From: a bacterium
GTDB taxonomy: Bacteria > RBG-13-66-14
Length of the DNA stretch: 16,891 bases
Direction of reading: 5' to 3'
Assembly (NCBI GenBank): GCA_035528375.1
Contig: DATKYS010000074.1
Coordinates: forward strand, 1 to 16,891
Positions 4,869 through 16,891 of the stretch are shown in pieces. The notes under the pieces are model-generated. The model had not been told where the DNA came from. It did not search any database and saw only the letters and a program-made list of their open reading frames with translations. The translations under genes and the position numbers were made by a program. Numbering within the stretch: position 1 is the stretch's first letter; every line of letters begins with the position of its first letter.

Positions 4869-7535
4869 ATGAAATTGCACACGACGGCCCTGGCCCTCTG
4901 CGTCTGCCTGGTAATTGTCGCGCCCGTCCTGGCCGGCAACACAGCGCAGATCTCCGGCATCGTCGCCGACGAAAGCGGTATGCCCATCGCCTTCGCGACG
5001 ATCCGGGTAGAGGGCACGGACATCCACGCCACCTCTGACGAGGACGGGTACTTCTCCCGGAGTGACGTTCCACCCGGACAGTACAACGTGACCTGCTCGG
5101 CTCCCGGGTATATGGACTTCACCTACGTCGAGATTCCCTTCCTCACCGACATGCGGCGCAACGTCAACTTCAATATGAAGCGCCCCGAGGCGGAGGAGGT
5201 GCTGACCATCACGGTCCACGCCGAGCACCGCCTGATCGAGCCCAGCCTGACGACCTCCATTGACTACATCACCGCCGAGGACATCGAGCAGCTCCCGGCG
5301 GACAACTTCTACGACCTGATGGAGAACGAGGCGGGCGTCACCAACGACGACGGATTCATGCACGTCCGCGGCGGCCGCGCCACCGAGATCACCTACATGG
5401 TGGACGACATGCCGATCCTGGATCCCGTCACCGGGTACGCCGCCACCAACGTCAACAACTCCGCCATCGCCGAGATGAGCATCATCTCGGGGACCTTCTC
5501 CGCCGAGTACGGCAACGCCCAGTCCGCCGTGATCAACATCACCACCAAGGCCGGCAGCACCAAGGAGCACGAGGGAATGGTCCGCTTCCGGCAGGAGCTC
5601 TACCAGAGCACCAAGGAATTCGGCTCCCAGAAGGTGCTGGAGTCCACCGGACAGCCCGACTGGGATTCCGTACCCACCACCTGGACCACCCGGACCCGCC
5701 AGGGACGCTTCTGGAAAGGCGAGGCGTCCGTCGGCGGCCCGATTGGCAACTTCATGACCTTTTTCCTCTCCGGCGACTACTCCGAGACCGGAACCCAGTT
5801 GATCATGCCGCGCCCCCGCTGGGAGTACAACGCCCAGAGCAAACTGCGGTTCAGCTTCTCCCAGGACATGTCCCTGACCCTTTCCGGCTCCCTGAACCAG
5901 CTCTACCGTCCGCTCTTCGACGTCCAGTACCAGTACACGCTGGACAACATGTACCACCTTTGGCGCGACTCGTATCAGGTGAGCGGCACTTGGAAGCACA
6001 TGATCAACGAGAAAACTTACTACACACTCCGCGCCAACTACTTCAACTCCTGGAACCACTACGGCGTCCGCTGGGGCGACGATGATTGGCACTGGGAGAA
6101 CGATCCCAACAACCCCGGGGAGCAGATCCAGGTCTGGGAAAACGGCGACGCCTGGGGCGACCACCAGATCGGCGACATGAAGTGGTGGGAGGACTACGAC
6201 ACGGACTGGCGCCAGGGCGGCCCCGGCGGCTGGTTCTACACCAAGGGCGACATGCGCATCTGGGAAACCCGCAAGGAGCAGATCTGGACCGGCAAGGGCG
6301 ACTTCACCACCGAGATTGACGAGCACAACCTGATCAAGGCCGGTCTGGAATACACGAACTACGACGTGGATCTCTTCCAGCGCCAGCCCCTGGCCTCCAA
6401 CACCTACGGCGACAAATACCACGTCTTCCCGTGGCAGGGCGCGGTGTACGTACAGGACAAGATGGAATACACCGAGATGATCATCAACCTGGGTCTCCGC
6501 TTCGACTACTTCGACCCCAACACCGACTACCCCGAAAACCCGATGGACTCCCAGGACTCCGATCCCGATTCGGATAACGAGACCTTCCAGGACATCCCCC
6601 GGGTGGACGCCGAGGCCAAGTACCAGCTCTCGCCGCGTCTGGGCGTGGCCCATCCGATCTCGGAGTTCGACAAGCTCCACTTCTCCTACGGGCACTTCTT
6701 CCAGATGCCGTCCTTCCGCTACCTCTACATGGGCAACTACGAGAAGCCGATCGGCGCCTACCCGATCTTCGGGAACCCGAACCTGAAGCCTGAGAAGACC
6801 ATCTCCTACGAAATCGGCATCCAGCACCTGTTCACCAAATCGGTGCTCCTCGACGTCACCGGTTTCTACAAGGACGTCTCCGGGCAGCTCGACACCATCC
6901 GCTACAATCACCCCCTGGGCATCTGGAACTACACCCGGACGACCAACTCCGACTGGGGCAACGTCCGCGGCGTAGAACTGGTCCTGGACGGCACCTGGAC
7001 CGACTGGTTCAGCTCGAAGATAGCCTACACCTACTCCATCGCCCGGGGCCTGTCGTCGGATTGGCGGCAGGGGTACGACTACTCGTACTACGGCTGGAAC
7101 CTCCCGCTGGAAGCCAACCTGTTGGACTGGGACGTGACCCACACCGTCAACCTGATGCTCGACTTCCGCGACGCCGACACGTGGGGCGCCAACCTGAACT
7201 TCAGCTTCGGATCCGGCACGCCGTACTCACCCCCCACCGAGCAGGGCGGCCAGAAGAGGATAAACTCCGAGCGCATGCCCTGGTCCATGACCCTGGACGC
7301 CAAGGTCAACTACAACATAAACATGTGGGGTATGCAGTTCCAGCTCTTCGTCGAGGCGCTCAACATCTTCGACCGCTGGAACGTGAGTAACCTGGGACCC
7401 GACGAGGGCACAGGTGGTAACCGCGACTGGACGACTTTCTACTATCTCTACGGCGACGAGAACGGACCGTGGGACGACGTGGACGTCTACGACGAACCCT
7501 TCCAGCTCCGCGTCGGCGGCAGCATATCCTTCTAG
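4869..7535 (+). CDS. TonB-dependent outer-membrane receptor with N-terminal carboxypeptidase-regulatory-like domain
   Basis: 888 aa. Signal peptide 1-22, then a CarboxypepD_reg-like beta-sandwich (about 26-104: ISGIVADESGMPIAFATIRV...GYFS...PPGQYNV), a TonB-box-like EEVLTITV (109-116), a plug (about 120-228: HVRGGRATEITYMVDDMPI... and FSAEYGNAQSAVINITTKAG), and a long beta-barrel ending in the aromatic LRVGGSISF. This is the architecture of SusC/Oar-type receptors that import bulky substrates with energy from TonB-ExbB-ExbD. No SusD-like lipoprotein is next to it, and the substrate is unknown. Residues 402-473 carry 11 tryptophans among many Asp/Glu/Gly and are probably a surface loop. The ATG at 4869 follows GGGAGGG by six bases and is preferred to the in-frame TTG at 4863. 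It is first in a co-directional series ending with its energising TonB system. Confidence 0.95.
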   Translation: MKLHTTALALCVCLVIVAPVLAGNTAQISGIVADESGMPIAFATIRVEGTDIHATSDEDGYFSRSDVPPGQYNVTCSAPGYMDFTYVEIPFLTDMRRNVNFNMKRPEAEEVLTITVHAEHRLIEPSLTTSIDYITAEDIEQLPADNFYDLMENEAGVTNDDGFMHVRGGRATEITYMVDDMPILDPVTGYAATNVNNSAIAEMSIISGTFSAEYGNAQSAVINITTKAGSTKEHEGMVRFRQELYQSTKEFGSQKVLESTGQPDWDSVPTTWTTRTRQGRFWKGEASVGGPIGNFMTFFLSGDYSETGTQLIMPRPRWEYNAQSKLRFSFSQDMSLTLSGSLNQLYRPLFDVQYQYTLDNMYHLWRDSYQVSGTWKHMINEKTYYTLRANYFNSWNHYGVRWGDDDWHWENDPNNPGEQIQVWENGDAWGDHQIGDMKWWEDYDTDWRQGGPGGWFYTKGDMRIWETRKEQIWTGKGDFTTEIDEHNLIKAGLEYTNYDVDLFQRQPLASNTYGDKYHVFPWQGAVYVQDKMEYTEMIINLGLRFDYFDPNTDYPENPMDSQDSDPDSDNETFQDIPRVDAEAKYQLSPRLGVAHPISEFDKLHFSYGHFFQMPSFRYLYMGNYEKPIGAYPIFGNPNLKPEKTISYEIGIQHLFTKSVLLDVTGFYKDVSGQLDTIRYNHPLGIWNYTRTTNSDWGNVRGVELVLDGTWTDWFSSKIAYTYSIARGLSSDWRQGYDYSYYGWNLPLEANLLDWDVTHTVNLMLDFRDADTWGANLNFSFGSGTPYSPPTEQGGQKRINSERMPWSMTLDAKVNYNINMWGMQFQLFVEALNIFDRWNVSNLGPDEGTGGNRDWTTFYYLYGDENGPWDDVDVYDEPFQLRVGGSISF

Positions 7536-7542
7536 GTTGCCA

Positions 7543-7572
7543 AGGTCGGGGTCGAACCGTCGGCCCCGACCT
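7543..7572 (+). repeat. GC-rich hairpin after the receptor gene
   Basis: Perfect 9-bp arms AGGTCGGGG / CCCCGACCT around a 12-base loop, 8 bases after the receptor stop. No T tract follows, so read-through into the next gene is expected. It could be an mRNA-stabilising or processing structure, or a weak attenuator. Confidence 0.6.
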
Positions 7573-7644
7573 ACCCCGGATTTGCCAAGGGCATACCCGG
7601 TTTTGTCGTAAACATTCACCGTTCTCAGCAAGGAGGAAATCTCC

Positions 7645-10041
7645 GTGAAGCTGAAACTTAAAATCGGCCTTTCAGCCGTGGCACTGATGGCCTTCGTCGT
7701 GGGGGTGGTGGCGGTCGGTTCAAACGGTGTGACGGCCCGCTCGCTCACCAAGGTTGAACCGGACGGCAACTTCCGCATCATGACCTTCGTCCACAACATA
7801 GGCAACTTCGGCAACACGGTGTTCAACTGCGCCAACATCGGCTCGGACAGCGTGGTGCCAAACGGCGAGTGGCCTCTCGGTTCGGGCGTTGAATACAACT
7901 ACACCGGCTCGCCGTGGTTCGGCAACCAGGAGACCGTCATCCACGTGTACCACGTGATGCAAGAGCTCGACTGGTCTCCGAAGTCGCCCATCTACAACAC
8001 CGACCCCGGCACACCCTACCCGCTCCCCACGTCCTTCGGCCCGCAGGAGGGCACCGACTACAGCTGGATGAGCGAGTACTGGCGCACCAACGTTCCATCG
8101 CGCGTCTCGGACCAGGACGGCCACTGGTACATGACCGACGAGGGCTCGAAGATCCAGATCGGCCTCGAGGTCTGCGTCCAGTCCATGGGCTGGAGCGCAC
8201 CGGGCCACGACGAGTGGCTCACCATCTACTACTTCCTGCGCTATAAGGGAACGGCCCCGCTCGACCCCGACACATACATGGCCTTCGCCTTCGACTGCGA
8301 CGTCGGCGGAGGGATCTCCTCCGGCGACGACCTGGCCCAGTTCGACGGCAACAGCACCCAGCTCGGGCAAGGCTCCGGCGAGCCCTTCGGCGACGGCGAC
8401 CTCTACAACAACGTCACCTGGGCTAAAACCTCCGACTACATCCCCGACGAGTACGACTCCGTCAACTTCCCCATGCCCATTGACGGCAGCTCGGACACCC
8501 AGCCCTACTGGGAGTACTTCGCCGGTAACTCGAGTTACCAGTACGCCGCGCCGCGCAACATGAGCTACATGTTCGACTCCGAGTGGGATTCGGGCGGCCC
8601 CTACCCCGGTTTCGTCGGGGTGCGCTTCCTGCGCGCCTGCATAGATCCCGGCGGCCCCGCCGAACGTGAGTACATCGTCACCGGCCAGCACTCCTGGGAC
8701 ATCAACAACGACCCGGAGAACGATGCCTACAAGTTCGCCTACATGGTGGACGTCGGGACCTTCGAGGAAATCACCACCGCCTACGACTGGCGCATCTGCC
8801 CCTCGGTCGGGCCCTTCGAGGACATGTCCGGCGAGGGGATGCAGCCCGGCGAGGTGCTCGAGGTGCGCAACTGCTTCGTCATCGGAAACCACCGCAACGG
8901 GTTACGGGCGAACGCCGACCAGGCCCTGGCAGACGCCCTGGGCTTCAACGGCAAGTTCGACGACCCCCGCCAGGGGGACGAGGTTGACGACTTCGTCGTG
9001 CTCTCGCCGCCCAAGAGCGCGCTCCTCTCGGCCGGAGTTCAGGACGGCAACATCACACTCCACTGGGACCCCCTGATCAACCTCACCACCAACATCGAGG
9101 TCCTGCCCGACATCAGCTCCAACAACCAGATTGACTTCGAGGGCTACCGTCTCTACCGCGCCGCGGCGCTGGACCAGCTCGGCAACAACGCCGACCTCAA
9201 GCCCTGGTATGACGACGGCCAGACCGAGGAGCCCACGTACCTGCGCGACCTCTTGTGCTGGTGGGACAAGGACATCAACGACACGAGCGATTGGCACGGC
9301 GGCGAGTACTGGAAGGCCCCGGGCTACCACGGCCCCGGCCACCCCACCCATCCCGACCTTTCAGCCGTCCGGTACGAGTACAACCAGCTCAACAACTGGG
9401 ACGACATTCAGTACGCCCCGGGCACCGGCAACCGGATCTACGAGTACATAGACGACGGGAACCACTACGCCCACTGGGACAAGTGGGTGGATTACTCCTC
9501 GCGTGGCGGTGACGACACCTGGGCCGACGACTACGACGTCCCGATACCCCAGCCACCGCGCACCCACTTCACCTACTACTACGCCGTCGTCTCCTTCGAC
9601 TTCGGCGCGCACCCCTTCTACAACGAGCAGATTGGCGAGGACCCGTACCCCGCGCTCGAGGGCGGCGTGCGGGCCAACTACATTCAAGTGACGCTGACCA
9701 CCGGTAACAGCGACAACCTGGACAACGTGCTGGTGGTGCCAAACCCCTACATCGGTGGGGTTGACTGGCAGACCCGTTCGGTGACGGGTATCGTCGAGCG
9801 CAAGCTCGCCTTCACCAACCTGCCCGACCGCTGCACCATCCGCATCTACACGATTTCCGGCGACCTGGTGGACATCATCGAGCACAACAACCAAACCTCC
9901 GGCACGGCGTGGTGGGACCTCCAGTCCCGCAACAACATGGAGGTGGCGTCCGGCGTTTACATCTACCACATAGACGCCACCGAGTCCGGTCTCGGCACCA
10001 AGATAGGGAAGTTCGCCGTCATCCTGGGCGAGAGACTGTAA
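7645..10041 (+). CDS. Large secreted protein with C-terminal sorting-type (FlgD-Ig/T9SS-like) domain
   Basis: 798 aa. Start GTG at 7645, chosen because AAGGAGGA stands seven bases upstream. Signal peptide about 1-31. The body is rich in Tyr, Trp, Asp and Gly, with an Asp-rich stretch DCDVGGGISSGDDLAQFDGN that may bind calcium. From about residue 454 (PPKSALLSAGVQDGNITLHWDPL...FEGYRLYRA) it looks like fibronectin-type repeats, ending YYYAVVSFDFG. The last hundred or so residues (VPNPY...FTNLPDRCTIRIYTISGDLVDII...WDLQSRNNMEVASGVYIYHI...GKFAVIL) match the Ig-like C-terminal domain used as a type IX secretion signal in Bacteroidota and found as FlgD-like Ig elsewhere. A PorV-family gene, the T9SS shuttle family, follows directly. 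Likely on the cell surface; no catalytic motif is recognised. Export by a T9SS-like route is inferred. Confidence 0.85.
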   Translation: MKLKLKIGLSAVALMAFVVGVVAVGSNGVTARSLTKVEPDGNFRIMTFVHNIGNFGNTVFNCANIGSDSVVPNGEWPLGSGVEYNYTGSPWFGNQETVIHVYHVMQELDWSPKSPIYNTDPGTPYPLPTSFGPQEGTDYSWMSEYWRTNVPSRVSDQDGHWYMTDEGSKIQIGLEVCVQSMGWSAPGHDEWLTIYYFLRYKGTAPLDPDTYMAFAFDCDVGGGISSGDDLAQFDGNSTQLGQGSGEPFGDGDLYNNVTWAKTSDYIPDEYDSVNFPMPIDGSSDTQPYWEYFAGNSSYQYAAPRNMSYMFDSEWDSGGPYPGFVGVRFLRACIDPGGPAEREYIVTGQHSWDINNDPENDAYKFAYMVDVGTFEEITTAYDWRICPSVGPFEDMSGEGMQPGEVLEVRNCFVIGNHRNGLRANADQALADALGFNGKFDDPRQGDEVDDFVVLSPPKSALLSAGVQDGNITLHWDPLINLTTNIEVLPDISSNNQIDFEGYRLYRAAALDQLGNNADLKPWYDDGQTEEPTYLRDLLCWWDKDINDTSDWHGGEYWKAPGYHGPGHPTHPDLSAVRYEYNQLNNWDDIQYAPGTGNRIYEYIDDGNHYAHWDKWVDYSSRGGDDTWADDYDVPIPQPPRTHFTYYYAVVSFDFGAHPFYNEQIGEDPYPALEGGVRANYIQVTLTTGNSDNLDNVLVVPNPYIGGVDWQTRSVTGIVERKLAFTNLPDRCTIRIYTISGDLVDIIEHNNQTSGTAWWDLQSRNNMEVASGVYIYHIDATESGLGTKIGKFAVILGERL

Positions 10042-11536: not shown

Positions 11537-13045
11537 ATGGAAAAGAAAATAACATTCCTACTCGTGTTATTCCTCCTTCTGGCCCCGGCCGCAGCCGACT
11601 TCGGACCGTCGGACTCCGAGGGCGGCATTCTGTTCACCACCGACAGCCGCCAGTTCTTCGGCACACGGGGAACCCTCCTGGAGATCTACTACCAGGTGCC
11701 CAACACCTCGTTGAAATTCACCCCCACAACCGAGGGAACCTGGTGGGCCACCTACATCACCATGCTGGAGATTCTCAATCCCGACGGGGAGGTAATCTAC
11801 CGGAAAACCGCCACCAACGACGTCGAGGTGACCCTCGAGGAACAGACACGGCAGGAATCGTTCTACTCGCTCAATACGTTTCGGGTGGAAATCGAACCCG
11901 ATCTTTACGAGGCCCGGCTGATCATCGGCGACCCAAACTCGAAGCTCGAGGGTACGGCGTTGCTGCCCCTTGAGGTAAATCTCAGGCCGGTGCCCGGCAT
12001 CAGCGACATCCAGCTCGCCTCCCGGGCCCGGGCGCTCAACGCGGAGGATTTCGATCCCGAGGGGAATTTCAAGGGGAAGGCCGAGCTGGTCAAAGACGAC
12101 TACTTCGTCGCCCCCCTGGCCAGCCGGCGGCAGGTGTCGCCCGACGACAACCTCCTCTACTTCTTCCTGGAGCTCCTCACCGACCCCGGTGAGCACACGT
12201 TCGCCTACGAGATATACGACGAACCGGGCAGGCTCGTGGACTCCGGGGAAACCGATTTCACGGGAGGCGGGATCGCGGGCACGGTCTTCTCGGTGAACGC
12301 GGGGGACTGGACCCGGGGCAAATACACCGTCCGGGGCCGGCTGACGAACGACACCTCCGGGGAGGTCGTGGCTGAGAGGGAATCCTTCTTCTGGATCGGC
12401 TCGGTGACTCCCGAGACGGTGACGGAGGTGGCCCGCGTCTCCGACGTCCCGATGACCGACCGCGAGTTCGAGCAGATACTTCACGAAATCGGCTTCATCG
12501 CCGCCGAGGACGAGATAATTCAGCTCAAAGCCGCGCCGCCCGAGGGGCGCTGGACCGTGGTGGACCATTTCTGGGCCGTGAGGGATCCCGACCCGACGAC
12601 GCCGGAGAACGAGTTCAAAATCGAGTACTACCGCCGCCTGTCCTACGTGCGCGAGCACTTCGCCACCGGCTACACCGACGGACTGGACACCGACCAGGGC
12701 CGCCTCTACGTCAGGTACGGCCCTCCCGACGAAATCGTCGAGAACCCCCTCGGCGCGGGCATCGCCGGCACGGAGCACCTGGGGGGCGAGGCCCCGGAAC
12801 TCGAGGGGAGCTTCAGCGGCGACGGCCGCCAGGGAACGGCGGTTGCCGCCAGCGGCAACCAGGGCCAGACCGATTCCAGCGTGGGTGAGTTCATGGGCGT
12901 CATCGTGAACCTGGAAAAACCTCATCTTTTATGGATTTATTACTCTTCCAGCTCGGATTCAGGCATCCGGAAGTTCCTCTTCGAGGACCGGACGGGTTTC
13001 GCGAACTACGAGATCGTATGGTCGACCGAGAGGGGCGAGTACTAG
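11537..13045 (+). CDS. GWxTD domain-containing secreted protein
   Basis: 502 aa. Signal peptide about 1-21 (MEKKITFLLVLFLLLAPAAA), predicted exported. The N-terminal 300 residues are beta-rich and not assigned. The GWxTD domain begins near residue 330: FWAVRDPDPTTPENEF (345 on) and GYTDGLDTDQGRLYVRYGPP (378-397). The family motif reads GLDTD here, with Leu for the usual Trp. A Gly/Ser/Ala-rich insert of about 50 residues (roughly 403-450) separates GPPDEI from the closing LLWIYY...FLFEDRTGFANYEIVW. GWxTD proteins are common in Bacteroidota-related and candidate-phylum genomes and their biochemical function is not established. ATG 11537 is preferred to GTG 11534 because GGTGGT then sits six bases upstream. 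It lies directly ahead of exbB. Confidence 0.87.
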   Translation: MEKKITFLLVLFLLLAPAAADFGPSDSEGGILFTTDSRQFFGTRGTLLEIYYQVPNTSLKFTPTTEGTWWATYITMLEILNPDGEVIYRKTATNDVEVTLEEQTRQESFYSLNTFRVEIEPDLYEARLIIGDPNSKLEGTALLPLEVNLRPVPGISDIQLASRARALNAEDFDPEGNFKGKAELVKDDYFVAPLASRRQVSPDDNLLYFFLELLTDPGEHTFAYEIYDEPGRLVDSGETDFTGGGIAGTVFSVNAGDWTRGKYTVRGRLTNDTSGEVVAERESFFWIGSVTPETVTEVARVSDVPMTDREFEQILHEIGFIAAEDEIIQLKAAPPEGRWTVVDHFWAVRDPDPTTPENEFKIEYYRRLSYVREHFATGYTDGLDTDQGRLYVRYGPPDEIVENPLGAGIAGTEHLGGEAPELEGSFSGDGRQGTAVAASGNQGQTDSSVGEFMGVIVNLEKPHLLWIYYSSSSDSGIRKFLFEDRTGFANYEIVWSTERGEY

Positions 13046-13090
13046 ACCCTTCTCCAATCTATCCACCTCTGCACCCGGGAGGACCACTCC

Positions 13091-13894
13091 ATGGCAAAAG
13101 TCAGACGTCTCAGCCTGTTCGCCCTGCTGGTGACCACGCTCTTCGTGCTGGCCCCGGCCACGATCGTGTTCGCCCAGGAGGCCGCGGCTGAGGGCGACGC
13201 TACCACCACCGAGGGGGAAACCCCGCCCGCCGAAGGCGAAGAGCTTCCCGCCGCACCCACCGACGAGGAGGGTGAGGCCGGGTCGGTCCAGGACTACTTC
13301 GCCAAGGGCGGGGTGGTCATGTACCCGCTGCTCCTGACCTCCGTGCTGGCCGGCGCGTACATCATCGAACGCCTGTTCACCTTCCAGTTCGCCAAGATAG
13401 ACGCCCGCAAGTTCACCGATCGGATCGTCGAGCTGGTCAAGGCCGGCAAGCGCGGCGAGGCCATCGAGGAGTGCAAGAAGACCCGCGGGCCCATCGCCGC
13501 CGTGTTCAAGGCCGTCCTGGAGCGCGCCGACCGCGGCGTGGCTGCGGCGGAGAAGGCGGCCGCCAACTCCGGCGCCGTGGAGCTCGCCTTCCTGGAGCGC
13601 GGCCTGATCGTGCTGGCCTCCGCCTCCACCATCGCGCCCATCCTCGGATTCCTCGGGACCGTCACCGGGATGATCCGCGCCTTCGAGGGCATCGCCCGGG
13701 CCGGTGAGGTCAAACCCACCATCGTCGCCTCCGGTATCTCCGAGGCCCTGATCACCACGGCGACGGGACTGGCCATCGCCTTCCCCGTGCTCATCATGTA
13801 CAACTACTTCACCAGCCGCATTGACCGCTTCGTCCTGGAGATGGAGGAGAGCACCACCGAGCTCATTGACGCCATCGAAGACACCCAGGCTTGA
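13091..13894 (+). CDS. exbB: MotA/TolQ/ExbB proton channel family protein
   Basis: 267 aa. ExbB forms the inner-membrane proton-conducting stator that, with ExbD, energises TonB. A cleavable-looking signal peptide (about 1-28, ending IVFAQ) is followed by a periplasmic Glu/Ala/Pro-rich linker (29-66), an N-terminal extension absent from E. coli ExbB. Three membrane segments follow, about 74-93, 171-192 and 218-240. The channel motif GFLGTVTGMIRAFEGIA (186-202) and EALITTATGLAIAFPVLIMYNYF (from 218) are conserved family sequences. ATG 13091 follows GGGAGGA. It is 45 bases after the GWxTD gene and 12 bases before exbD, clearly in one operon. It could equally be called TolQ; the linked TonB and receptor favour ExbB. 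Confidence 0.95.
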   Translation: MAKVRRLSLFALLVTTLFVLAPATIVFAQEAAAEGDATTTEGETPPAEGEELPAAPTDEEGEAGSVQDYFAKGGVVMYPLLLTSVLAGAYIIERLFTFQFAKIDARKFTDRIVELVKAGKRGEAIEECKKTRGPIAAVFKAVLERADRGVAAAEKAAANSGAVELAFLERGLIVLASASTIAPILGFLGTVTGMIRAFEGIARAGEVKPTIVASGISEALITTATGLAIAFPVLIMYNYFTSRIDRFVLEMEESTTELIDAIEDTQA

Positions 13895-13906
13895 CGGGGG
13901 TGACCC

Positions 13907-14317
13907 ATGGCCTTTAAACGCAAAAGCAAGGTGTCAGCCGATATACCGGCGGCGTCCATGTCCGACATCGCCTTCCTGCTCTTGATCTTCTTCATGACCA
14001 CCACCATCTTCAACGTGGAGAAGGGGATCCGTCTGGTGCTGCCGGCTGAGGGTCCGTCGCTGAAGGTCAAGCAGACCCACATCATCACCGTGCAGGTCGC
14101 CGAGGACGGCTCCATCTACCTGACGACGCCCGACGGCGTCAAGCCGATTCCGAGCAAGGGCCTTTTGAAGGATGAGCTCGAAAAGCGTCTGGCCAAGGAC
14201 AGCGAACTGGCCTTGATCTTCGAGGTCAGCGAGAAGGCGAACTACGAGATGATGATAGACGTCTTCGACGAGATAAAGAAGGCCAACTTCCAGCGCATCG
14301 CGCTGAAGATAAATTAG
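13907..14317 (+). CDS. exbD: ExbD/TolR family protein, first copy
   Basis: 136 aa. Single N-terminal membrane helix, SMSDIAFLLLIFFMTTT (residues 17-33), with Asp20 at the position of the proton-carrying Asp of ExbD/TolR, then a periplasmic domain (about 40-136) ending ALKIN. It partners ExbB in converting proton-motive force to TonB movement. ATG 13907 has GGGGGTG close upstream, and the gene lies 12 bases after exbB and 11 before the second exbD. Its periplasmic domain differs strongly from that of the second copy although the membrane helices are almost identical. Confidence 0.95.
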   Translation: MAFKRKSKVSADIPAASMSDIAFLLLIFFMTTTIFNVEKGIRLVLPAEGPSLKVKQTHIITVQVAEDGSIYLTTPDGVKPIPSKGLLKDELEKRLAKDSELALIFEVSEKANYEMMIDVFDEIKKANFQRIALKIN

Positions 14318-14328
14318 GGGGGTCGGCC

Positions 14329-14742
14329 GTGCAGTTGCTGAAGAAGACCAAGTCCAAACCGGAGATCCCCGCGGCGTCCATGTCCGACATCGCCTTTTTG
14401 CTGTTGATCTTCTTCATGACGACCACGGTCTTCAACGTGGACCGGGGGCCGCAGATCAAGCTCCCCTCCGCCGAGAAGGTGGAGAAGACGAAGCGCAAGG
14501 ACACCGTCGCCCTCTACGTGGACCGCAACGGCAACATCAACATAGACGGGCGCTACATCGCCCTGGAGCTCCTGCCAGACATCATGACCGAGGAGGTCGC
14601 CGCGAACCCGAACCTGACGGTGATATTCAAGGCGGACCGCGGCGCCGAGTACGGGCGGCTGATGGAGGTCTTCCAGCAGCTCCAGAAATCGCGAGCCTAC
14701 AAGATATCCCTCTCCACCGAGCTCGAAACCGGAGGGCTCTGA
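14329..14742 (+). CDS. exbD: ExbD/TolR family protein, second copy
   Basis: 137 aa. The N-terminal helix SMSDIAFLLLIFFMTTT again starts at residue 17, with Asp20 as the likely proton-relay residue, then VFNVDRGPQIKLPSAEK and a periplasmic domain with VALYVDRNGNINIDGR. The start is GTG at 14329, supported by AGGGGGG six bases upstream. Tandem ExbD pairs are common in these lineages; the two may form a mixed dimer in one ExbB ring or serve different TonB partners, which the sequence does not decide. It lies 62 bases before tonB. Confidence 0.94.
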   Translation: MQLLKKTKSKPEIPAASMSDIAFLLLIFFMTTTVFNVDRGPQIKLPSAEKVEKTKRKDTVALYVDRNGNINIDGRYIALELLPDIMTEEVAANPNLTVIFKADRGAEYGRLMEVFQQLQKSRAYKISLSTELETGGL

Positions 14743-14804
14743 CACTCCAGGAACAAACCCCGCAGCCCCGGCGTATTAAACCCGGCCAGTAGAAGGGGTT
14801 CGAT

Positions 14805-15479
14805 ATGGCAAACGAAGACAAAAGCGGCGATCGCCTCTTCGACGCGAAGGCCAAGCGCGGCCTCTTCCTCCAGGCGCTCCTTCTGTCCATCCTGTGCTGT
14901 CAGGTGGTCGTCCTGGGGATGAGCAACTTCGTGGGGCCGGTGCAGCCTTTCGTGCTCCAGCGCAACGTGCAGCAGCTGGAGAACATCGAGGTTATCAAGC
15001 CGCCCTCGAAAACGATTCAGATTCCCGAGGTCAAGCCGCCGCCCAAGCTCGTCCAGGCCGCCCCCGAGATATCCGAGGACGAGGAGGCCGCGGAGACCAT
15101 TGACATCCCCACATTCGAGCACGTCGTGGTGGAGGACACCGGCCATAGCGTATTCTCCGATCTGGGGCCCATCGGCGGCGATGAGGTGGGTGAAGAGCGG
15201 GGGCTCACGCCTCCCGAGAAGATTTCCGCCCCGGACCCCGAGTACCCGCCCATGCTCAAGGAGGCGGGCTGGTCCGGCACCTGCTCCATCGGGCTCTACA
15301 TTGACGAATCGGGAAACATAGGCAAGGTCTGGGTCATCCGCAGTACCGGCAAGGCCGAGGCCGATCAGGCGGCGATCGAGGCCGCCTGGGCCTCCCAGTG
15401 GAGGCCGGCCACCCAGAACGGCGTCCCCATCGCCAAGAAGATTTCCATCACCTACGAGTTCGAGATAGACGTTTACTAG
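14805..15479 (+). CDS. tonB: TonB energy transducer
   Basis: 224 aa. A short cytoplasmic N-terminus, one membrane anchor (about 19-40, containing adjacent Cys31-Cys32), a Pro-rich then Glu-rich periplasmic linker (about 61-140, with IKPPSKTIQIPEVKPPPK), and a TonB C-terminal domain (about 144-222: DPEYPPMLKEAGWSGTCSIG, YIDESGNIGKVWVIRSTG, AAWASQWRPATQNGVPIAKK). The domain binds the TonB box of outer-membrane receptors and passes on energy from ExbB-ExbD; the receptor at the head of this gene train is the obvious client. ATG 14805 follows AGAAGGGG. It is the last gene before a strong terminator. Confidence 0.95.
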   Translation: MANEDKSGDRLFDAKAKRGLFLQALLLSILCCQVVVLGMSNFVGPVQPFVLQRNVQQLENIEVIKPPSKTIQIPEVKPPPKLVQAAPEISEDEEAAETIDIPTFEHVVVEDTGHSVFSDLGPIGGDEVGEERGLTPPEKISAPDPEYPPMLKEAGWSGTCSIGLYIDESGNIGKVWVIRSTGKAEADQAAIEAAWASQWRPATQNGVPIAKKISITYEFEIDVY

Positions 15480-15518
15480 CGGGACGGCGGCCCCGGCGGG
15501 GGCGTGTACCGAGCATCG

Positions 15519-15546
15519 AACCGGACGGAAAGCCGTCCGGTTTTTT
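15519..15546 (+). terminator. Rho-independent terminator after tonB
   Basis: Perfect 10-bp stem AACCGGACGG / CCGTCCGGTT with an AAAG loop, running into a tract of six T. It is 39 bases after the tonB stop. A smaller GC hairpin, GCCCC-GGCG-GGGGC (15490-15503), lies just before it. This closes the receptor-to-tonB series. Confidence 0.92.
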
Positions 15547-15587
15547 AATAGCTACAGGGGCGAGCATTCTCTTCATTTCGGTGGCCC

Positions 15588-15616
15588 TTGACGACCTTGT
15601 AATTTTGTACTAGATT
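15588..15616 (+). promoter_or_regulatory. Sigma70-type promoter for the lipoprotein unit
   Basis: TTGACG (15588-15593), a 17-base spacer, and TAGATT (15611-15616) give a good sigma70-type promoter just after the terminator and about 40 bases before the lipoprotein ATG. An inverted repeat TGTAAT (15598-15603) / ATTACA (15614-15619) overlaps the -10 and could be an operator. Confidence 0.6.
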
Positions 15617-15655
15617 ACATAAGTCATGAAAAGAACTACAAAAAAGGGGATGATA

Positions 15656-16268
15656 ATGGACAAACACAAGCTCTTCTCTTCTCTTCGTTTTCGCGGCGTT
15701 CTTTCTGATTTCCTGTGAAGACGGCCTCTCGCCGTCGGAGGTCTCGCCTCTGTCAGACGACCCTCCTCCACCCTTGTACGGATTCTGGCGGATAGAAGGG
15801 GCAATTGACGCCCCGCTCGACTGGGACCCCCAGATGGACCCCGACCTGTTCCAGATCTGGTTCGGCGCGACCGAGCCCGTGTGGTCGCTCTACCAGGCCG
15901 ATTGCGAACCGCATATTACTTTCAACCTGGTCTTCACCGGACAGGAGGCTTGGCGCTGGCACTTCAAGGCTGAAGGGTCTCAACACTACGAAGGTGACCC
16001 CTTTCACACCTACTTTAGTCCCCCCGCAGATTGGTGGTCTCACCCCGACGAGGGCACACCGAGGTTCAGGCGCACCTTTGTCCAGGGGTACAAGTGGGTG
16101 GAATGGGGAGGCGGCTGGGCGTTAGTGATAGCGGACGAGGACTGGTCCTTCAGCCCGAAGAATTACGCGGACGGCATTCCCCGGCTGAATTGGAAGTACT
16201 TCCAACCTTACCCTCACGGCGATTTGTTTTACTGGGCCTGGGACACCGTTTATCTCGACCTCACATGA
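15656..16268 (+). pseudogene. Trp-rich lipoprotein gene, out of frame at a CTCTT repeat (possibly phase-variable, OFF)
   Basis: ATG 15656, with AAAAGGGG six bases upstream, opens a frame that ends after 20 codons at TGA 15716. A second frame, open from 15657 to the stop at 16268, lacks an ATG or GTG at its beginning yet encodes a lipoprotein signal, SSLLFVFAAFFLISC with lipobox LISC, followed by EDGLSPSEVSPL, a Pro run and a Trp-rich domain (YGFWRIEG..., GYKWVEWGGGWALVIADEDW) ending VYLDLT. The two frames meet at three tandem CTCTT units (15671-15685). With four units, or one, start and body join perfectly, giving roughly a 205-aa outer-membrane lipoprotein. As written it is off. A TTG at 15774 could only start a protein without the signal and has no ribosome binding site. 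The body has no stops and normal codon use, so the break is recent, reversible or an error. Function unknown. Confidence 0.75.
15671..15685 (+). repeat. Pentanucleotide tandem repeat (CTCTT)x3 in a signal-peptide coding region
   Basis: Three perfect copies of CTCTT directly follow the codons for MDKHK. A change of one unit shifts the reading frame. It is the same unit and the same place (leader peptide) as the phase-varying repeats of Neisseria opa genes, though only three copies are present here. Confidence 0.85.
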
Positions 16269-16280
16269 GGAGGTAACGTC

Positions 16281-16891
16281 ATGACCAGGATGACAATCCT
16301 TTTACTCTGCGCCCTCACGTTTTCGGCCACGCTCGGCCTCACCGGCGCTGTCGGCGTTTCGTCCCCGCACCGGGACGACGACCTGCAGGTCCTCTGGGAG
16401 GAGCCCTACGACTTCTCGCACTTGAGCGGAGGTTTTGGGAGCTGGGGGCCGCACTACACCCAGGACGACTTCACCCTGGCGACGGACGCGGTGCTCCAGG
16501 CCGTCGAATGCTGGGCGTATTACTACCCCGACGAACCCGACCACCACCCCCAGCTCTTCCACGTGGGCCTGCGCTACGACCACTACGGCATGCCCGGCGA
16601 GTACTACATCGCCAGTTATTGCCCCCATCCGAAAGAGACCTTTACCGGCGACGTTTACCTGGATATGTTTCCCGTGTACCACTACCGGTTGAACCTGGTA
16701 GACGACATCGGCGTTGAAGCCGGGACGCCGTTCTGGCTCGAAATCTACTCGGTGGCCGAAAATTTCGATTGGGGGATAAGGAACACCGGAAACCTGTACT
16801 ACACGTGGACACAATACGACGCCTCTGCCTTCTTCCGCCTCCTGGGCACGCCCCTGGACACCGACGTTCAGTCCGCGAGCTGGGGGGAGAT
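16281..16891 (+). CDS. Secreted protein, partial (runs off the window)
   Basis: At least 203 aa, open to the window edge. ATG 16281 follows GAGGAGG, which overlaps the stop of the preceding lipoprotein gene, by seven bases, so the two are very likely co-transcribed. A signal peptide (about 1-25: MTILLLCALTFSATLGLTGA from residue 4) is followed by an aromatic, Asp- and His-rich beta-sandwich-like sequence: LQVLWEEPYDFSHLSGGFGS, DDFTLATDAVLQAVECWAYY, then repeated YDHYG / VYHYR / FWLEIYS strands. The 'DDFTL...AVECWAYY' pattern recurs in extracellular beta-rich proteins of candidate phyla, but no named family is claimed. It may carry a sorting-type domain beyond the edge, as the protein at 7645-10041 does. 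Confidence 0.85.
   Translation, partial: MTRMTILLLCALTFSATLGLTGAVGVSSPHRDDDLQVLWEEPYDFSHLSGGFGSWGPHYTQDDFTLATDAVLQAVECWAYYYPDEPDHHPQLFHVGLRYDHYGMPGEYYIASYCPHPKETFTGDVYLDMFPVYHYRLNLVDDIGVEAGTPFWLEIYSVAENFDWGIRNTGNLYYTWTQYDASAFFRLLGTPLDTDVQSASWGE

Follow-up and report, generated by a model that had tools for sequence, protein, structure and literature searches.

The closest described counterparts of the locus analysed here are the opa genes of Neisseria, in which switching proceeds at ~1e-3 per cell per generation (PMC3960869) and whose positions also move by genomic rearrangement (PMC3960869, PMC4534519, PMC13183285). The locus resembles them in its CTCTT repeat unit, in the position of that unit within the signal-peptide codons and in the logic by which unit number sets the reading frame (PMC3960869, PMC4534519), and also in having several loci per genome in mixed ON and OFF states (PMC3960869, PMC4534519, PMC13183285). 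A second precedent, in which a simple repeat controls the frame of a surface lipoprotein, comes from Mycoplasma lipoproteins such as p78 of M. fermentans, phase-variable through a poly-A frameshift (cited in PMC3711429). The window, by which we mean the whole stretch of 16,891 nucleotides analysed, is contig C74 of a 2.63-Mb draft genome (G000, 144 contigs) of Ca. Coatesbacteria. Very probably, its lipoprotein gene belongs to a small family of phase-variable lipoproteins, restricted to the genus, that would operate as slipped-strand, translational contingency loci.

A CTCTT tract in the leader of a lipoprotein gene

The window carries a sigma-70-like promoter, TTGACG-17-TAGATT (15588-15616; 0.1 expected in shuffles), which ends 40 bases 5' of the ATG at 15656 and is followed by an A-run/G-run ribosome-binding region (AAAAAAGGGG; Table 1). 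The codons after the ATG read MDKHK and lead into exactly three CTCTT units (CTCTTCTCTTCTCTT), after which the frame soon closes, giving a 20-residue product (MDKHKLFSSLRFRGVLSDFL). The +1-shifted frame is open from 15657 to 16265 (203 codons, or 192 counted from FAAFFLISC), stops at 16266-16268 and encodes FAAFFLISC-EDGLSPSE..., the end of a lipoprotein signal and a mature protein of 184 residues. As in a contingency locus, the repeat unit is 5 nt long, not divisible by three, and lies inside coding sequence. Upstream of the lipobox the body frame has no in-frame ATG, GTG or TTG (TAA at 15654 is followed by TGG). Any other usual start for the lipoprotein is thus absent, and the window copy is OFF unless the tract length changes. 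An alternative start codon for the window lipoprotein was rejected on the same grounds.

This arrangement agrees with the sequence-only reading, which had described a good promoter and ribosome-binding site, an ATG at 15656 leading through three CTCTT units into the wrong frame, and an intact lipoprotein signal with about 180 clean codons in the adjacent frame. Its arithmetic, by which three copies are out of frame and one or four give an unbroken signal peptide, is correct (n = 1, 4, 7 and so on), and its comparison of unit and location with the Neisseria opa leaders matches the published descriptions (PMC3960869, PMC4534519).

Table 1. Features of the window, with tract length and frame state of the seven full-length family members
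Feature	Positions	Strand	Units (n)	State	Details
Promoter block common to family cassettes	15575..15623	+			-35 TTGACG 15588-15593; -10 TAGATT 15611-15616
A-run/G-run ribosome-binding region	15640..15649	+			From sequence and leader alignment
OFF reading frame	15656..15718	+			ATG 15656; 20 aa; TGA 15716-15718; second in-frame ATG 15650
(CTCTT)x3 tract	15671..15685	+			Codons 6-10; ON requires n = 1 mod 3
Lipoprotein frame, FAAFFLISC...	15690..16265	+			192 codons; lipobox LISC 15705-15716; Cys+1 codon 15714
Downstream secreted beta-sandwich-like protein (MTRMTILLL... paralogue family)	16281..16889	+			Contig end cuts gene; GGAGG 16269-16273
G000:C74 (window)			3	OFF	
G003:C477			4	ON	
G001:C150			5	OFF	
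G002:C102			6	OFF	
G002:C132			7	ON	
G001:C151			8	OFF	
G001:C51/C303			10	ON by phase, across contig break	

In the mechanism we propose, the conserved promoter and leader would start translation, and the CTCTT tract within the signal-peptide codons would set the frame. Slipped-strand mispairing would add or remove 5-nt units; in one length class in three the ribosome would continue into the lipoprotein, and in the other two translation would end as a peptide of 20-25 residues. CTCTT repeats read L-F-S-S-L in all three frames without a stop, so that ON alleles of any length should retain a hydrophobic signal core. Expression of the downstream gene, with its own GGAGG, may persist in OFF alleles. 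The A-runs and G-runs of the ribosome-binding region also vary in length between the window and its homologues, reaching G7, and form a possible second slippage site.

The lipoprotein matched no family in Pfam, NCBIfam or PDB sequence searches, and its structural model, which is beta-rich and of low confidence (mean pLDDT 58.9), gave no convincing structural match. The protein has a lipobox and may be displayed at the cell surface. Judging by the usual behaviour of such genes, our best guess would be a binding or shielding protein, exposed at the surface, whose loss and gain would diversify the population with respect to phages, predators or changing ligands.

Tract length and reading frame across the genus

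Searched at the protein level, 98 genomes yielded homologues in just three besides the window's own, all of its genus (G001; G002, RBG_13_66_14; and G003, CSMAG_1439), at 50-72% identity; all three carry them, as against 0 of 10 other genomes of the phylum, and profile searching of 14 genomes of the phylum likewise limits the family to the genus. The close full-length homologues all share the promoter, ATG, leader codons, CTCTT tract and lipobox. Together with the window copy, the six others make seven full-length members in four genomes, with 3, 4, 5, 6, 7, 8 and 10 units, counts in which the units at either end of a tract can be degenerate. The value of 10 is less certain, since that gene is split between two contigs whose 40-base overlap lies inside the tract, as expected of a repeat longer than a short assembly word.

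Three of the seven are ON and four OFF; every ON copy has n = 1 mod 3, and none of the seven bodies contains a stop. Distances from ATG to lipobox differ by whole pentanucleotides, gaps of whole units appear in the tract when the leaders are aligned, and a single-base frameshift outside the tract was found in none of the seven. The length differences come in whole units and change the frame. Each genome is one consensus sequence, and unit numbers were compared between genes and species; slippage would be the cause of such differences, and the frame state is presumably reversible. Comparing repeat number and frame in homologues was the check that the sequence-only reading had put forward, and its outcome (3-10 units, mixed states, open bodies, whole-unit differences) supports the claim of a phase-variable locus for the gene family as a whole. 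In the window allele, the three pure copies make a weak switch. With only three units the window allele would switch slowly; it probably does so, or is decaying.

One syntenic locus, beside an M23-like peptidase gene, can be followed through four species, with 3 units in G000:C135, 10 in G001:C303/C51, 6 in G002:C102 and 4 in G003:C477. The peptidase side is common to the first three, and the opposite side is also found in G003:C477. In G000:C135 the lipoprotein body is absent and the leader frame stays open up to a stop immediately ahead of the following gene. This is the only other tract of G000, which has no ON copy. G003:C52, an eighth and more distant relative, carries a degenerate tract of two units in its leader, is out of frame and looks like a case of decay; the leader in G003:C81 is degenerate too.

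Against the repeat background of these genomes the tract stands out. The 15-mer (CTCTT)x3 occurs at two sites in the 2.63-Mb genome, both in the family's promoter-leader context; simple base arithmetic puts the expected number of sites at an estimated ~0.005. Among sampled contigs of four genomes (169,442 bases), these CTCTT tracts were the only tandem repeats of 2-8 nt above our thresholds, and any five-mer repeated three times is expected 0.25 times in shuffles of this sample. A chance origin of the tract was rejected on these two results. (CTCTT)5 is present in 4 of 386 genomes, two of the window's genus and two from other phyla.

Selection, and alternative explanations of the window copy

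We estimated dN/dS at 0.49 between the window body and that of G001:C150, and at 0.58 between G002:C102 and G001:C303. Flanking genes gave 0.14-0.24, the lipoprotein bodies being two to four times higher; by these estimates the bodies evolve fast yet below neutrality. When unconstrained drift was simulated over half of the window-C150 synonymous distance, all 192 codons stayed open in 1-2% of runs. A single open OFF copy does not prove reversibility, because a recently switched-off copy would be open too, but recent independent losses would hardly account for four open OFF copies spread over three genomes.

The most substantial alternative makes the window copy a pseudogene with a fixed frameshift, its lineage being in the course of losing a family that is phase-variable elsewhere in the genus. 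This would be compatible with the family-level reading, and we regard it as a real possibility, if somewhat short of an even one. It draws on the mere three units of the window tract, on the equal length of the C135 tract, whose body is deleted, on the want of an ON copy in G000 and on the raised dN/dS. Against it, the body is open over 192 codons with lipobox and promoter intact, and the window branch, although indistinguishable from drift, is no faster than that of C150 (12 synonymous and 27 nonsynonymous changes, compared with 13 and 27). An assembly or base-call error hiding a true in-frame sequence might be suspected in a draft of 144 contigs, where the end of the window contig overlaps C27 by 141 bases. 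This is very unlikely, given that a 15-base tract is far below the assembler's apparent word of ~141 and that the assemblies of three other species, made independently, share the whole-unit pattern and the mixture of frames.

Programmed ribosomal or transcriptional frameshifting at the repeat, yielding lipoprotein from a fixed offset, would explain why OFF copies keep open bodies. However, offsets of n = 0, 1 and 2 mod 3 all occur, so that a conserved offset is absent and no fixed shift could serve all homologues; we consider such frameshifting highly improbable. We judge equally improbable that the repeat is a by-product of a serine/leucine-rich signal peptide with neutral changes in length. 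LFSSL repeats do fit a signal core in any frame, but neutral coding repeats under protein selection would vary by multiples of three units, whereas four of the seven are out of frame, and exact repeats have been kept at the DNA level. Phase variation across the family remains our preferred reading.

Cassette arrangement and relation to known systems

The flanks joined in the window correspond to two different loci of a relative. Positions 11573-15623 align with G001:C386, a TonB locus, at 90.6%, and positions 15575-16891 with G001:C150, a response-regulator locus, at 77%; the right flank of the latter continues in G000:C27, and its left flank corresponds to G000:C54. The junction of the two syntenies falls inside the shared promoter of ~50 bp (15575-15623), and G001:C386 has the promoter and downstream gene without a lipoprotein. 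Cassette shuffling, or misassembly, is therefore likely; recombination between loci seems the simplest reading, with misassembly possible. We tentatively suggest, at somewhat less than even confidence, a multi-locus system of an uncultured phylum in which slippage would switch individual copies and recombination at the ~50-bp promoter would move cassettes, giving an Opa-like repertoire independent of Neisseria.

The downstream protein likewise matched no family in Pfam, NCBIfam or PDB sequence searches; its model is a beta-sandwich with weak matches only, including phage baseplate, discoidin-like and carbohydrate-binding domains. In G001:C150 (L092, ~7518-8130) a tandem duplication of ~30 bases shifts the frame of the gene 3' of the lipoprotein. 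A scrambled cassette in G003:C81 (L099) has the order degenerate leader, downstream-type gene, lipoprotein C-terminal fragment and second downstream-type gene. Several contigs of G000, namely C54, C113, C135 (right end) and C74/C27, end inside cassette genes (L102, L103, L090, L091); C74 and C27 share exactly 141 bases, and C54 and C113 end in identical sequence. Contig ends within cassette genes suggest identical copies or strain variants. Elsewhere in the window, the minus-strand protein at 1160-2209 weakly matches an SPP1 gp7-type minor capsid domain (E 0.0027, short of the cut-off), and a large secreted protein at 7645-10041 has weak matches to T9SS-type C-terminal domains; its gene neighbours one for a TonB-dependent receptor and one for a predicted outer-membrane barrel.

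Outside the genus, five paralogues (L119-L123) in a distant 1.2-Mb genome, G212, have leader tracts of (CTCTT)12, 14, 16, 16 and 21 (MTKTITTAFKKASLLFSSLLF...) in mixed frames. They share with the Coatesbacteria genes the CTCTT unit, its leader position and the mixture of frames; their proteins, in contrast, are larger and of another kind, and their tracts much longer (12-21). They are apparently a second opa-type switch outside the Coatesbacteria genus. Our literature search, which left most subscription journals and preprints outside its range, found no paper joining Coatesbacteria with phase variation or with lipoprotein.

An opa-type CTCTT switch in a genus of Coatesbacteria suggests independent origins of one solution, to which CTCTT may lend itself because its repeats encode a workable signal core (LFSSL) whatever the frame. 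The family may help to make populations heterogeneous, for instance in their response to phages, predators or ligands, and it offers a testable marker of such heterogeneity in an uncultured lineage, because metagenome reads give unit counts directly. Annotation of draft genomes can turn genes of this type into pseudogenes or short fragments.

The likeness to Mycoplasma p78 (cited in PMC3711429) lies in repeat control, the repeat there being a homopolymer and here a pentanucleotide, in unrelated bacteria. Membership of the Neisseria opa family was considered and rejected: searches of Pfam, NCBIfam and PDB gave no match to the Opa outer-membrane barrel, and the protein has a lipobox instead. As the protein is not an Opa, the proposed Coatesbacteria switch is opa-like rather than of the opa family. 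Unlike opa, it would govern a lipoprotein rather than an outer-membrane barrel, belongs to a different phylum and has short tracts, and convergence, not homology, best explains the resemblance. As judged from sequence, the Coatesbacteria CTCTT family would work much as the gonococcal Opa switch does, in an unrelated protein and bacterium.
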